From an uncultured Paracoccaceae bacterium (GTDB taxonomy: Bacteria > Pseudomonadota > Alphaproteobacteria > Rhodobacterales > Rhodobacteraceae), in the NCBI GenBank assembly GCA_947500825.1, contig CANMTR010000001.1, forward strand, positions 62,001 to 126,000: a DNA stretch of 64,000 nucleotides, in the 5' to 3' direction. Under the pieces are notes generated by a model. The model was not told where the DNA came from. It did not search any database and saw only the letters and a list, made by a program, of their open reading frames with translations. Shown in pieces: positions 2-36,344 of this stretch. Position 1 is the stretch's first letter. Each line of letters opens with the position of its first letter. The translations under genes were made by a program, and so were the position numbers.

Positions 2-148
2 GCGGGGCGCGGCTGGATCGGGATCACCCCGCGCGGGGCCTATGTCACCGCCGACGTCACGGCCGTGCCGATGCTGCCGGCCTGGCTGTGGCTCGTGCTG
101 TCGGCGGGCCTGGCGATCGGCGCCTGGCTGCGGGAGGGACGCCGTTAG
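2..148 (+). CDS. C-terminal fragment of a membrane protein, 5' end outside window
   Basis: Open frame from window start (GRGWIGITPRGAYVTADVTAVPMLPAWLWLVLSAGLAIGAWLREGRR*), one hydrophobic helix, TAG at 146-148. Confidence 0.4.
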   Translation, partial: AGRGWIGITPRGAYVTADVTAVPMLPAWLWLVLSAGLAIGAWLREGRR

Positions 149-29717: not shown

Positions 29718-30701
29718 ATGGATCAGATTGCAGGGCAAAAGAGCGCAGCGTCGTATCTCTATCCGCGGATCGACCCGTTCGATCAGAGGATGCTGTCGGT
29801 GGGCGACGGCCATTCGGTGTACGTGGAGCAGTGCGGCAACCCCGACGGCATCCCGGTCGTGGTCTTCCACGGCGGACCGGGCGGGGGCTGTTCGCCCTCG
29901 ATGCGCCGCTACTTCGACCCGTCGCGCTTCCGCATCGTGCTGTTCGACCAGCGCGGCTGCGGCCGCTCGCGGCCCCATGCCAGCGTGCGCGACAACACCA
30001 CGTGGCACCTGATCGCCGACACCGAGCTGATCCGCAAAACCCTCGGGATCGAGCGCTGGATCGTCTTCGGCGGCTCCTGGGGTGCCACGCTCGCCCTCCT
30101 CTACGCCGAGGCGCATCCCGACAGGGTCCGCCACGCGGTCCTGCGCGGCGTCTTCCTGATGACCCGCTCCGAGCTCGACTGGTTCTACGCCGGCGGCGCG
30201 GGCCGGTTTTGGCCCGACATGTGGCGCCGCTTCTCCGGGCTCGTGCCCGAGGAGGAGCGCGGCGACCTGATCGCCGCCTACAACCGGCGCCTCTTCTGCG
30301 GCGACATGCCGACGGAGACGCGCTTCGCCCGCGCCTGGGCGGGGTGGGAGAACACCCTGGCCAGCATCGACAACGAGGGCCCCTCGGGCGAAAGCCCGGC
30401 CGACTACGCCCGCGCCTTCGCCCGGCTGGAGAATCACTACTTCACCAACCGCGGCTTCCTCGACGCCGACGACCAGATCCTCGACGAGGTCCACCGCATC
30501 GCCAAGGTTCCGGGCACCATCGTCCAGGGCCGGTACGACATGATCTGCCCGCCGGTCTCGGCCGACCGGCTGCACCGGGCCTGGCCGGCCTCGCGGCTGA
30601 TCCTGGTGCCCCGCGCGGGGCATGCCCTGTCCGAGCCCGGCATCAGCGCGGCCCTGGTGCGCGAGATGGACACGATCGCGCGACAGGCCCGGCCCCGCTG
30701 A
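29718..30701 (+). CDS. pip: Prolyl aminopeptidase
   Basis: FHGGPGGGCSPSMRRYFDPSRFRIVLFDQRGCGRSRPHA; GGSWGATLALLYAEAHP. Confidence 0.95.
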   Translation: MDQIAGQKSAASYLYPRIDPFDQRMLSVGDGHSVYVEQCGNPDGIPVVVFHGGPGGGCSPSMRRYFDPSRFRIVLFDQRGCGRSRPHASVRDNTTWHLIADTELIRKTLGIERWIVFGGSWGATLALLYAEAHPDRVRHAVLRGVFLMTRSELDWFYAGGAGRFWPDMWRRFSGLVPEEERGDLIAAYNRRLFCGDMPTETRFARAWAGWENTLASIDNEGPSGESPADYARAFARLENHYFTNRGFLDADDQILDEVHRIAKVPGTIVQGRYDMICPPVSADRLHRAWPASRLILVPRAGHALSEPGISAALVREMDTIARQARPR

Positions 30702-30761
30702 GAGGGGGCCGGGCCGCGCGGGGCTTGCATTTCCCCGCCGCGAGGCGTAATTGCCCCTCAA

Positions 30762-30830
30762 CAGCGGCGCGTCGGGGTCCACACCCGGCGCCCACCGGGA
30801 TCGTCGAACGGGCCGCTGGCCCGTTTTTTT
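30762..30830 (+). promoter_or_regulatory. Candidate transcription attenuator leader of rimP-nusA-infB
   Basis: Terminator hairpin AACGGGCC-GCT-GGCCCGTT + TTTTT (30807-30830) 22 nt before rimP ATG; CAGCGGC (30762-30768) is the exact reverse complement of GCCGCTG (30812-30818). Confidence 0.6.
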
Positions 30831-30852
30831 GTGCCGGAACTCCGGAGGCTCC

Positions 30853-31449
30853 ATGTCCGATCTCATCGCCAAGGCCAGTATCGACCGTCGCCTCGCCGAG
30901 GTGATCGAGCCCGTGATCGAGGATCTGGGCTTCGAGCTGATCCGCGTGCGCTACCAGGGCGGCAAGACGCCCACCGTCCAGATCATGGCCGACCGTCCCG
31001 ACGGCGGGATCGAGGTCGACGAGTGCGGGACCATCTCCACCGCCGTCTCGGCCCATCTCGACGTGGAGGACCCGATCGAGGACGCCTACGACCTTGAGGT
31101 CTCCTCGCCCGGCATCGACCGCCCCCTGACCCGGCTCAAGGACTTCGACATCTGGGCGGGCTACGTGGCCAAGCTCGAGACGACCGAGCTGATCGACGGG
31201 CGGCGCCGCTTCAAGGGCACCCTGGCCGGGATCGAAGGCTCCGAGGTCCTGATCGAGATCGAGGAGGGCACGATCGGGCTGCAGTTCGACTGGCTGTCCG
31301 ACGCCAAGCTCGTCCTGACCGACGATCTGATCCGCGACGTGCTCAAGGCCCGCAAGGACAAGGGCGAGATCGGCGACGCGCAGTCCGCCGAGGTCGAGAC
31401 CGTCATCGACAGCGAAGACGACGCGCGTCTTCCGAACCAGAAGGACTAA
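30853..31449 (+). CDS. rimP: Ribosome maturation factor RimP
   Basis: [37 protein letters not shown]; upstream of nusA. Confidence 0.95.
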
Positions 31450-31455
31450 AGGCAC

Positions 31456-33213
31456 ATGGCCATCACCTCTGCCAACCAGCTCGAGCTTCTGCAGACCGCC
31501 GAGGCGGTCGCGCGCGAGAAGATGATCGACCCCGGTCTCGTCGTCGAGGCCATGGAGGAGAGCCTCGCCCGCGCCGCGAAGTCCCGCTACGGCTCCGAGA
31601 TGGACATCCGCGTGGCCATCGACCGCAAGACCGGCCGCGCCACCTTCACCCGCGTTCGCACCGTCGTCGACGAGGACCTGCTGGAGAACTACCAGTCCGA
31701 GGTCACCGCCGCCCAGGCCGCCGAGCTGGTGCGCGGCGAGCGCGCCGCCGTCAGCGTCGTGCCCGCCCGCGTCACCTTCCACGTGGAGGGCGAGGAGCGT
31801 CCCCGCACCCGCGACGTGCGCCGCTTCCTGCTCAAGACCGCCGGCCAGGGGTCCGACGCCGTCGCCCAGGACGCCGTTCCCGGCGACGGCGACGAGATCG
31901 TCGACGAGGTCCCACCGGTGGAGCTGGGCCGTATCGCCGCGCAGTCGGCCAAGCAGGTGATCCTGCAGAAGGTCCGTGAGGCCGAGCGCGACAAGCAGTT
32001 CGAGGAGTTCAAGGACCGCGTCGGCCAGATCATCAACGTCGCCGTCAAGCGCGAGGAATACGGCAACGTCATCGTCGACCTGAACCCCGGCGAGGGCGTC
32101 CTGCGCCGCAACGAGAAGATCGGCCGCGAGAGCTACCGCACCGGTGACCGCATCCGCGTCTTCATCAAGGACGTGCGCCGCGAGCCGCGCGGGCCCCAGA
32201 TCTTCCTGTCGCGCACCGCGCCCGAGTTCATGGCCGAGCTGTTCAAGATGGAGGTGCCCGAGATCTACGAGGGCATCATCGAGATCAAGGCCGTGGCCCG
32301 CGACCCCGGCAGCCGGGCCAAGATCGGCGTCATCTCCCACGACAGCTCCATCGACCCGGTCGGCGCCTGCGTGGGCATGAGGGGCAGCCGCGTGCAGGCG
32401 GTGGTCAACGAACTCCAGGGCGAGAAGATCGACATCATCCCCTGGAACGAGGACATGCCCACCTTCCTCGTCAACGCGCTGCAGCCCGCCGAGGTCTCCA
32501 AGGTCGTCCTCGACGAGGAGGCCGAGCGGATCGAGGTCGTCGTCCCCGAGGAGCAGCTGTCCCTGGCCATCGGCCGGCGCGGCCAGAACGTGCGCCTCGC
32601 CTCCCAGCTCACCGGCCTCGACATCGACATCATGACCGAGGAAGAGGAGAGCGCCCGGCGCCAGAAGGAGTTCGAGACCCGCACCCAGCTCTTCGTCGAC
32701 ACGCTCGACCTCGACGAGTTCTTCGCCCAGTTGCTGGTGGCCGAGGGGTTCACCAACCTCGAGGAAGTGGCCTATGTGGAGATCGACGAGCTGACGGTGA
32801 TCGACGGCGTCGACGAGGACACCGCCGAGGAGCTGCAGGCCCGGGCGCGCGACCACATCGACGCCCAGAACCGCAAGGCGCTCGACGAGGCCCGCGAATT
32901 GGGCGTTGAGGACAGCTTGGTTGAATTCGAGGGCCTGACGCCCCAGATGATCGTGGCGCTTGCGCAAGACGGCGTGAAGACGCTCGAGGACTTCGCGACC
33001 TGCGCCGATTGGGAGCTTGCCGGCGGCTGGACCACGGTCGACGGCGAGCGCGTCAAGGACGACGGCCTGCTCGAACCCCACGGCGTCGACCTCGAAGAGG
33101 CCCAGACCATGGTCATGACCGCCCGCATCCAACTGGGCTGGGTCGATCCCGAAGAACTAGAGCCCGACGCCGACGAGGCCGGGACGGACGAAACCGAGGA
33201 GATCCAGGCCTGA
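31456..33213 (+). CDS. nusA: Transcription termination/antitermination protein NusA
   Basis: 585 aa; S1/KH domains, [40 protein letters not shown]. Confidence 0.97.
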
Positions 33214-33216
33214 TTC

Positions 33217-33846
33217 ATGAGCCGTGGCAAGCCCAGTCCCGCGCCCGACGCGCCAGAGCGGCGCTGCCTCGCCACCGGCGAGGTCCAGCCGAAGCGCGGC
33301 CTCGTTCGCTTCGTGGTGGGGCCGGGCGACACGGTCTATCCCGATATCGCCGGCAAGCTGCCGGGGCGCGGGATGTACGTGGCCGCTGAGCGCGAGGCGC
33401 TCGAGCGGGCCGTGGCCAAGCGGCTCTTCTCGCGGGGCGCCAAGCGCCAGGTGACGGTCCCCGAGGGGCTCGTGGCCGAGGTCGAGGCGGCGCTGGTGCG
33501 GCGCGTGATCGACAGGATCGCCCTGGCGCGCAAGGCCGGCGCGGCCATCGCGGGCTACGAGAAGGTCAAGGAATGGCTCGACCGGGACCGCTGCCGCATC
33601 CTGCTGCAGGCGTCCGACGGGTCCGAGAGAGGCAAGTCGAAGCTCCACCGCCCCGGCGGGCGGGGATCGTTCTTCGACATCCTGACGGCGGATGAATTGG
33701 GTTTGTCCTTCGGTCGGGAACGTGTGATACATGCGGCGCTCGCCGCTGGCAGACTCGCGGAAGATTTTCGGGACGATGCCGTGCGGCTTTCGGGCGTTCG
33801 CTTGATGCAAGGCGACGATGGCGCCGGAAAGGTGAAGAAGAGCTGA
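33217..33846 (+). CDS. YlxR-family RNA-binding protein (DUF448)
   Basis: [41 protein letters not shown]; between nusA and infB. Confidence 0.9.
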
Positions 33847-36344
33847 TGAGTGACAATGACGGCAAGAAGACCCTCGGCGTTCGCGGCGGCGGCAGCAACC
33901 GCCCCGGCTCGGTGAAGCAGAGCTTCAGCCACGGCCGGACCAAGAACGTCGTGGTCGAGACCAAGCGCAAGCGCGTCGTCGCGCCGAAGCCCGCGGCCGC
34001 CAAGCCCGAGGGCACCGGCGGCAAGCCTCGCGTGGGCGATCCCAAGAAGCGCCCCGCCGGCATCTCCGATGCCGAGCTCGAGCGCCGCATGAAGGCCCTC
34101 GCGGCCGCCAAGGCGCGCGAGAGCGAGGAGGCCGAGCGCCGCGAGACCGAGGTGCGCCAGCGCGCCGAGGAGCGCGAGCGCCGCCGCCGCGAGATCGAGG
34201 AGAAGGAGCGCGAGGAGCGCGAGCGCGAGGAGGCCCTCAAGGCGAAGGCCGACGAGGACGCCCGCCGCCTGCGCGAGGAGCAGGAGGCGAAGGCCCGCGC
34301 GGCCGAGCCCCAGCCCACCCCCGCCGATGTCGAGGCCGAGGCGCAGCAGAAGGCCGCCGCCAAGGCGCCCGCGCCCGCCAAGGATCGCGAGGCCCGTGGC
34401 AAGGACCGCGCCGCCAAGCCCGCCGCCAAGGGCGGCGGCGACAAGCGCCGGTCCGGCAAGCTCACGGTCAACCAGGCGCTCGCCGGCGGCGAGGGCGGAC
34501 GCCAGCGCTCCATGGCCTCCATGAAGCGCCAGCAGGAGCGTGCCCGCCGCAAGGCCATGGGCCAGAGTCAGGACCGCGAGAAGGTCACCCGCACGGTGCA
34601 GCTCCCCGAGGCGATCGTCGTCTCCGAGCTGGCCAACCGCATGTCCGAGCGCGTCGCCGACGTGGTCAAGTCGCTGATGAACAACGGCGTCATGGCAACC
34701 CAGACCCAGACCATCGACGCCGACACCGCCGAACTCATCATCGAGGATTTCGGCCACAAGATTCAGCGCGTATCCGATTCCGACGTGGAGCAAGTCATCG
34801 AGCAGACCGACGATCGCACCCAGGACCTCAAGCAGCGCGCGCCGATCATCACGGTGATGGGCCACGTGGATCACGGCAAGACCTCGATCCTCGACGCGAT
34901 CCGCAAAGCCCGCGTCGTGCATGGCGAGGCCGGGGGCATCACCCAGCACATCGGCGCCTACCAGGTCGAGACCGAGGGCGGCACCACGCTGACCTTCCTC
35001 GACACGCCGGGCCACGCCGCGTTCACCTCGATGCGGGCGCGCGGCGCCCAGGTGACCGACATCGTGGTTCTCGTGGTGGCCGCAGACGACGCGGTGATGC
35101 CGCAGACGATCGAGGCCATCAATCACGCCAAGGCCGCCAAGGTCCCGATGATCATCGCGATCAATAAGTGCGACCGTCCCGGCGCCGATCCCCAGAAGGT
35201 CCGCACCGACCTGCTGCAGCATGAGGTCATCGTCGAGCAGCTCTCGGGCGACGTTCAGGACGTGGAGGTCTCCGCGGTCACGGGGCAGGGGCTCGAACAG
35301 CTCCTCGAATCCATCGCGCTCCAGTCCGAGATCCTCGAGCTCAAGGCCAACCCCGACCGCGCCGCCGAGGGCGCCGTGATCGAGGCGCAGCTCGACGTGG
35401 GCCGCGGTCCCGTCGCGACCGTCCTCGTCCAGCGCGGCACCCTGCGGACCGGCGACATCTTCGTCGTCGGCGAGCAGTGGGGCAAGGTCCGCGCCATGGA
35501 GAACGACCAGGGTCAGCGCGTGAAGGAGGCCGGTCCCTCCGTTCCCGTGGAGGTCCTGGGCCTCAACGGCACGCCCGAGGCCGGCGACGTGCTCAACGTC
35601 GTCCAGTCCGAGGCGCAGGCCCGCGAGATCGCCGAGTACCGCCAGAGCGCGGCCAAGGACAAGCGCGCCGCGGCAGGTGCCGCCACCACGCTCGAGCAGA
35701 TGATGGCCAAGGCCAAGGCCGACGAGAACGTGGCCGAGCTGCCCATCGTGGTGAAGGCCGACGTGCAGGGCTCCGCCGAGGCCATCGTCCAGGCGATGGA
35801 GAAGATCGGCAACGACGAGGTCCGCGTCCGCGTCCTCCACTACGGCGTCGGCGCGATCACCGAGACCGATGTCGGGCTGGCCGAGGCGTCGAATGCCCCG
35901 ATCATGGGCTTCAACGTCCGCGCCAATGCCTCCGCCCGCAACACGGCCAACCAGAAGGGCGTGGAGCTGCGCTACTACAGCGTGATCTACGACCTCGTGG
36001 ACGACGTGAAGGCCGCGGCCTCCGGCCTGCTGTCGAACGAGATCCGGGAGAAGTTCATCGGCTACGCCGAGATCCGCGAAGTCTTCAAGGTCTCCAACGT
36101 GGGCAACGTCGCGGGCTGTCTCGTCACCGAAGGGCGGGCCCGCCGCTCCGCCGGCGTGCGCCTGCTGCGCGACGACGTGGTCGTCCACGAAGGCACCCTG
36201 AAGACGCTCAAGCGCTTCAAGGACGAGGTCTCCGAGGTGATCTCCGGCCAGGAATGCGGCATGGCCTTCGAGCGGTACGAAGACATCCGCAAGGGCGATG
36301 TCATCGAGATCTTCGAGCGCGAGGAAGTCGAGCGCTCGCTCTGA
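33846..36344 (+). CDS. infB: Translation initiation factor IF-2
   Basis: [39 protein letters not shown]; charged N-terminal region. Confidence 0.97.

Follow-up and report, generated by a model that had tools for sequence, protein, structure and literature searches.

Introduction

The rimP-leader has been described as the most ubiquitous of transcription attenuators. Its general form, the GGGc..gCCC element that Naville and Gautheret (2010) reported upstream of rimP in the majority of species, nevertheless has no visible antiterminator or larger element; these authors proposed NusA for it (PMC2965389). An initial annotation of the DNA studied here had a rimP attenuator described in gammaproteobacteria, which is correct as to the description and too narrow as to the range (PMC2965389). 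The regulator of the rimP-leader is settled only for B. subtilis and E. coli. In B. subtilis, expression of nusA is controlled by intrinsic termination in the leader of its operon, which NusA stimulates (PMC12288461), in agreement with the annotation's statement that NusA autoregulates its operon in some bacteria.

Here we describe the rimP leader in a 64,000-nt stretch of DNA from an uncultured Paracoccaceae bacterium (contig CANMTR010000001.1), the whole of which is referred to as the window. No known Rfam family reached its threshold in the window, and the model of the gammaproteobacterial rimP leader (RF01770, gathering threshold 47 bits), which scored 102 bits in an E. coli control, gave no match there at E ≤ 10. 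We found no published report of a rimP leader in Rhodobacteraceae in a search whose reach excluded most subscription journals, and two surveys of structured RNAs, the first of them with Rhodobacterales motifs, mention neither rimP nor nusA in their main text.

A terminator directly upstream of the rimP operon

In the window, rimP (30853-31449, + strand; Pfam RimP_N and DUF150_C) is the first gene of an operon that continues with nusA (31456-33213, + strand; Pfam NusA_N and KH domains), ylxR/DUF448 (33217-33846; assigned by Pfam, between nusA and infB) and infB (33846-36344, + strand; Pfam IF-2). Upstream of rimP, an intrinsic terminator (30806-30830, + strand) has the stem (G)AACGGGCC/GGCCCGTT(T), a GCT loop and seven T. 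Its core, AACGGGCC-GCT-GGCCCGTT, spans 30807-30825 and the T-run 30824-30830, leaving a gap of 22 nt before the rimP ATG at 30853. Every feature named in the initial annotation was confirmed at the position given there. The stem bears the GGGc..gCCC rimP-leader signature and is conserved and covarying in relatives. GGAGG at 30844-30848 (+ strand), located by sequence between the terminator and the ATG, is the probable Shine-Dalgarno of rimP. The rimP frame is open upstream across the whole leader to a TTG at 30751 (30751-31449, + strand), which is not the gene start, because relatives start at ATG and the length of the leader varies.

Within 8 kb, the rimP terminator was the strongest of three terminator-like sites, with 9 bp compared to 5 bp in the other two, and the number of sites was unremarkable (2.3 expected). 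The folding energy of a 161-nt region was likewise unexceptional (z = -0.35 versus shuffles), so energy by itself proves nothing. In the 80 closest rimP loci from other genomes (mainly Palleronia, Aliiroseovarius, Silicimonas, Oceaniglobus and other Rhodobacteraceae), the T-run precedes the start codon by 11-61 nt, with a median of 18. Since this distance leaves no room for a second promoter after the terminator, the operon must be transcribed through it unless an internal promoter lies further downstream; the readthrough that had been argued from the 22-nt gap in the window would apply in the relatives as well.

The gene 5' of the leader encodes an alpha/beta hydrolase of the pip kind (Pfam). 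It is co-directional with rimP and stops at 30701, upstream of the hairpin, as would be expected if the hairpin were the 3' terminator of pip and rimP were read by leakage or from elsewhere. A conserved promoter is nevertheless situated between pip and the terminator, and only 31 of the 80 rimP loci of relatives had a detected pip homologue in the 1500 nt upstream, while promoter and leader were retained in all 80; the leader accompanies rimP irrespective of the gene upstream. We therefore rejected the idea that the terminator is merely that of pip, and give this explanation next to no credence.

Conservation of the leader and its promoter in Rhodobacteraceae

The leader comprises 72 nt (about 30760-30832) and has a promoter of its own, followed by a 5' element, a hairpin (hairpin I), a CCACCGG box and the terminator. 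The same block was found 5' of rimP in all 80 closest loci. A covariance model of the leader (80 positions, 13 pairs) scored the window leader at 5e-23 and had a single strong match in its own genome. Among 395 genomes sampled from the order, all of them Rhodobacteraceae, the model matched every genome and all 140 genera (E ≤ 0.01). A multi-copy regulon was considered and rejected on the basis of the one match in the genome itself and the weakness of the second matches (20-28 bits) in those family genomes in which a second match was checked, which we take for ordinary terminators. In a class-level sample, all five family members were matched, compared to only six weak matches in 380 other alphaproteobacterial genomes, three of the six being located just upstream of rimP.

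The possible promoter of the initial annotation, with a -35 TTGCAT (30725-30730), a 17-nt spacer and a -10 TAATTG (30748-30753; whole promoter 30725-30753, + strand), proved to be in register throughout the family. All 237 readable family leaders carried TTGnnn-16..19-TAnnnn at a near-fixed distance from the 5' element that follows, and 229 of them had a spacer of 17 nt. The commonest hexamers were TTGCAG/TTGCAT and TATATC/TATATG, and the -10 in the window is weaker than the family consensus of TATATC/G. The A or C immediately preceding AGCGG is the expected transcription start, and the transcript would then open with the 5' element itself. The family keeps the promoter, the 5' element, the intermediate hairpin and the terminator as a set, and this joint conservation, including both hairpins, supports the attenuator reading with which the locus had been annotated. 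Conservation, promoter and pairing potential were all established computationally.

A conserved leader with its own terminator might also be kept for the sake of its short product, a terminated RNA of about 70 nt that would act as a small RNA in trans, with operon control a secondary matter. Precedents are UpsM, encoded upstream of mraZ in R. sphaeroides of the same family (PMC5089854), and the enterobacterial rimP leader, a ProQ-associated RNA (PMC5391140). Against this, the promoter, hairpins and terminator largely account for the conserved letters, and the leader was always at rimP where examined, and we consider a trans-acting main product improbable.

Hairpin I and the CCACCGG box

The intermediate hairpin proposed from the window, hairpin I (GCGTCGGG-GTCCACA-CCCGGCGC, 30769-30791, + strand), is present, conserved and supported by covariation. 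Its loop is very variable, yet all 7 pairs covary: in 68 divergent leaders, changes on both sides occurred at 7/7 pairs, and 94.8% of cells were paired. For both hairpins together, 97.1% of cells in these leaders were paired, compared to 24-51% with the partners slid, and 144 cells had changed on both sides. RNAalifold recovered both hairpins on the same alignment, which was fitted to the model and so leans towards them. The relatives thus conserve both hairpins, with covariation in hairpin I and the terminator stem, and none in the antiterminator pairs when these are held to fixed columns. A lack of conservation of both hairpins had been named in the initial annotation as refuting an attenuator, and the hypothesis came through this check. 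The leader stands far above chance because it is conserved: in every genome sampled, in the register of its promoter in every readable leader, and in the covariation of hairpin I.

Ribosome-mediated attenuation via a leader peptide would be another way to control the operon, and such leaders are reported in Rhodobacterales, an example being the uORFC-8-2 motif at cysS (PMC8632094). No conserved leader ORF was found in the 237 family leaders, 190 of which contain no ATG, nor does the window leader contain one, and hairpin I starts only a few nt from the predicted 5' end. The missing ORF led us to reject a leader peptide, and control of this type is extremely unlikely here.

Between the two hairpins, the CCACCGG box (30792-30798, + strand) was recognized from the family leaders, where it reads CCACCG(G/A) in about 80% of the 237. 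It has no consistent pairing, and what pairing it has is weak in both conformations. As a partner of the 5' element it was rejected, the predicted contact being 2-3 bp (GG-CC or CGG-CCG) and not clearly covarying. Hairpin I can gain a GG-CC extension by pairing with the CC of the box, and because this extension uses G residues that the antiterminator needs, hairpin I would favor termination. The remainder of the box is conserved but lacks consistent pairing, a pattern that suggests a bound factor and makes the box a candidate factor-binding site.

Probable pairing between the 5' element and the terminator loop

The 5' element CAGCGGC (30762-30768, + strand), with which the transcript is predicted to begin, has its exact reverse complement in GCCGCTG (30812-30818, + strand), which contains the terminator loop and inner stem and pairs with the 5' element in predicted folds of the growing transcript. 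This perfect complementarity was the central observation of the initial annotation, and the family leaders carry it further. AGCGG is nearly invariant in the 237 leaders, the terminator loop starts with CCGC in nearly all of them, and the pairing is kept in nearly all. In three lineages both strands have changed and the pairing has been restored in a different sequence, as CAGAGG/CCTCTG (L077, L242), as ACAGG/CCTGT with a matched 2-nt loss (L164, L166, L278) and as CACCGGC/GCCGTG (L227). In one genus (g7, which at a guess resembles Paracoccus) the terminator stem is now GGGGCC/GGCCCC and the loop is still CCGCTG. The pairing is absent in L137/L287 and reduced to 4 bp in L156, L163 and L134.

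The canonical 5' element bound family loops with a mean of -8.6 kcal/mol, compared to -3.0 for the loops of other alphaproteobacterial rimP terminators, and a leader's own loop was bound better than permuted loops (z = -3.2, p = 0.001, over 95 distinct combinations with kinship uncorrected). The antiterminator pairs showed no covariation beyond shuffles with fixed alignment columns, because these columns hardly vary. In the growing window transcript, the antiterminator had a probability of about 1 between 30818 and 30822 and gave way to the terminator at 30824-30826, with energies of -32.9 and -34.9 kcal/mol. Across the 237 leaders, the contact had a mean probability of 0.95 in partial transcripts, compared to 0.39 with the first 12 bases shuffled, and the complete leader preferred the terminator (0.77). 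A stricter control tones this result down, with upstream pairing to the terminator arm at 0.71 observed versus 0.58 in dinucleotide shuffles, chance pairing being common in GC-rich RNA. With polymerase halted on the U-tract, RNA has emerged from the exit channel roughly as far as the last base of GCCGCTG, which would allow the contact to form immediately before termination is decided. The claim that the antiterminator and terminator pairings are mutually exclusive is supported by folding of the growing transcript and by the three rebuilt pairings, with the few leaders listed above as exceptions. Judged on these sequence patterns, the contact between 5' element and loop is likely to be real.

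A contact of this kind need not act as an antiterminator: the leader could be a constitutive or NusA-tuned terminator in which the 5' element and the box are protein-binding or stability sites. Both are kept mainly as sequence, the contact lacks fixed-column covariation, GC-rich RNA has a high rate of chance pairing, and a reading of this kind was proposed by Naville and Gautheret for the rimP-leader in its general form (PMC2965389). These points have to be weighed against the rebuilding of the pairing in three lineages, the retention of the CCGCTG loop despite the change of stem, and the lack of a CCGC loop in the rimP terminators of other alphaproteobacteria. On this evidence we regard a leader without an antiterminator as unlikely, though far from negligible.

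rimP terminators of other alphaproteobacteria

Among 56 readable regions upstream of rimP from other alphaproteobacterial families, 35 had a terminator. A loose GGGc filter passed 34, and about 33 were, by eye, GTGGGC..GCCCAC with a U-run, suggesting that the signature of the general rimP-leader is class-wide; the regions bearing it were drawn from L184, L186, L188, L192-L218 and L289-L323, upstream of rimP. The loops of these terminators vary (TCT, GAT, GAA, TAC and others), and antiterminators for them were not clearly above shuffles (0.63 versus 0.57). The idea of a perhaps independent switch, put forward when the locus was first annotated, can thus be divided. The terminator part is probably not independent of the known rimP-leader, as GGGc..gCCC is widespread, and the antiterminator part may be; the antiterminator at the 5' end looks family-specific. 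In L205 and L210, the predicted transcript start ACATAGCCCG contains GCCCG, complementary to CGGGC in the 5' arm of their own rimP terminator, possibly a separate antiterminator design.

Proposed mechanism

The leader is a real and conserved feature, and very probably it is an attenuator. That it attenuates transcription of rimP-nusA-ylxR-infB by switching in the manner proposed here is, in our assessment, probable, with co-transcriptional switching as the inferred step. Transcription would start at ~30760 from a dedicated sigma-70-type promoter, making CAGCGGC the first structural element. Hairpin I would fold after the 5' element has been made. Once GCCGCTG is transcribed, the 5' element could pair with it as an antiterminator, and closure of the terminator would be delayed or blocked. 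Otherwise, the GGGCC/GGCCC hairpin would close over the U-tract and stop transcription, and the RNA released would be about 70 nt long. Hairpin I, together with its GG-CC contact to the box, would compete for the G residues of the antiterminator and so favor termination. The balance between the two outcomes would most likely be set by feedback from NusA, which would promote termination as it does in B. subtilis, perhaps via the unpaired CCACCGG box; by this analogy, NusA feedback on the leader is plausible.

A further-reaching proposal is that the switch evolved in Rhodobacteraceae, with the first nascent nucleotides serving as an antiterminator strand that clamps the loop of an ancient rimP-leader terminator, and with a trans factor (NusA or RimP) that reads the unpaired CCACCGG box and sets the output of the operon. 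We offer this tentatively, as a possibility about which we have more doubt than confidence; if true, the switch would define a class of RNA that spans the family, sits at an essential operon and is absent from Rfam. The leader also lends itself to a new Rfam family, and it would tie together the supply of NusA, RimP and IF2 in a large bacterial group with marine, soil and phototrophic members. Because the family has one invariant promoter, leaders that are compact, and compensatory variants that arose naturally, the questions of antiterminator and regulator can be tested directly in it.

Comparison with known systems

The closest relation is to the general rimP-leader. Like it, the leader described here lies 5' of rimP-nusA-infB (by Pfam) with a conserved promoter upstream, and has a GGGc(...)gCCC stem and downstream U-run that are conserved in the family; the distance from terminator to gene (22 nt here, 11-61 nt in relatives) falls within the 4 to 130 nt required of that element. 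It differs in its conserved 5' element, hairpin I and CCACCGG box. With the gammaproteobacterial RF01770 it shares the operon and the terminator signature, and in E. coli a sequence upstream is also able to pair with the terminator region, but there the terminators are in tandem and located downstream of metY. As in the nusA (ylxS) leader attenuator of B. subtilis, a leader terminator precedes the nusA operon, and the role of NusA here is proposed by analogy with that system only; unlike it, the Rhodobacteraceae leader has a conserved antiterminator candidate. The UpsM leader of the dcw cluster (PMC5089854) is similarly a long leader, conserved in the family, that holds a terminator and may refold ahead of a core operon, but differs in operon, sequence and size (a 206-nt RNA), and its alternative fold is unsupported by its own consensus structure. 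Set beside these systems, what appears to be new in Rhodobacteraceae is a family-wide leader that combines a dedicated promoter, hairpin I, the CCACCGG box and a candidate antiterminator at the 5' end.
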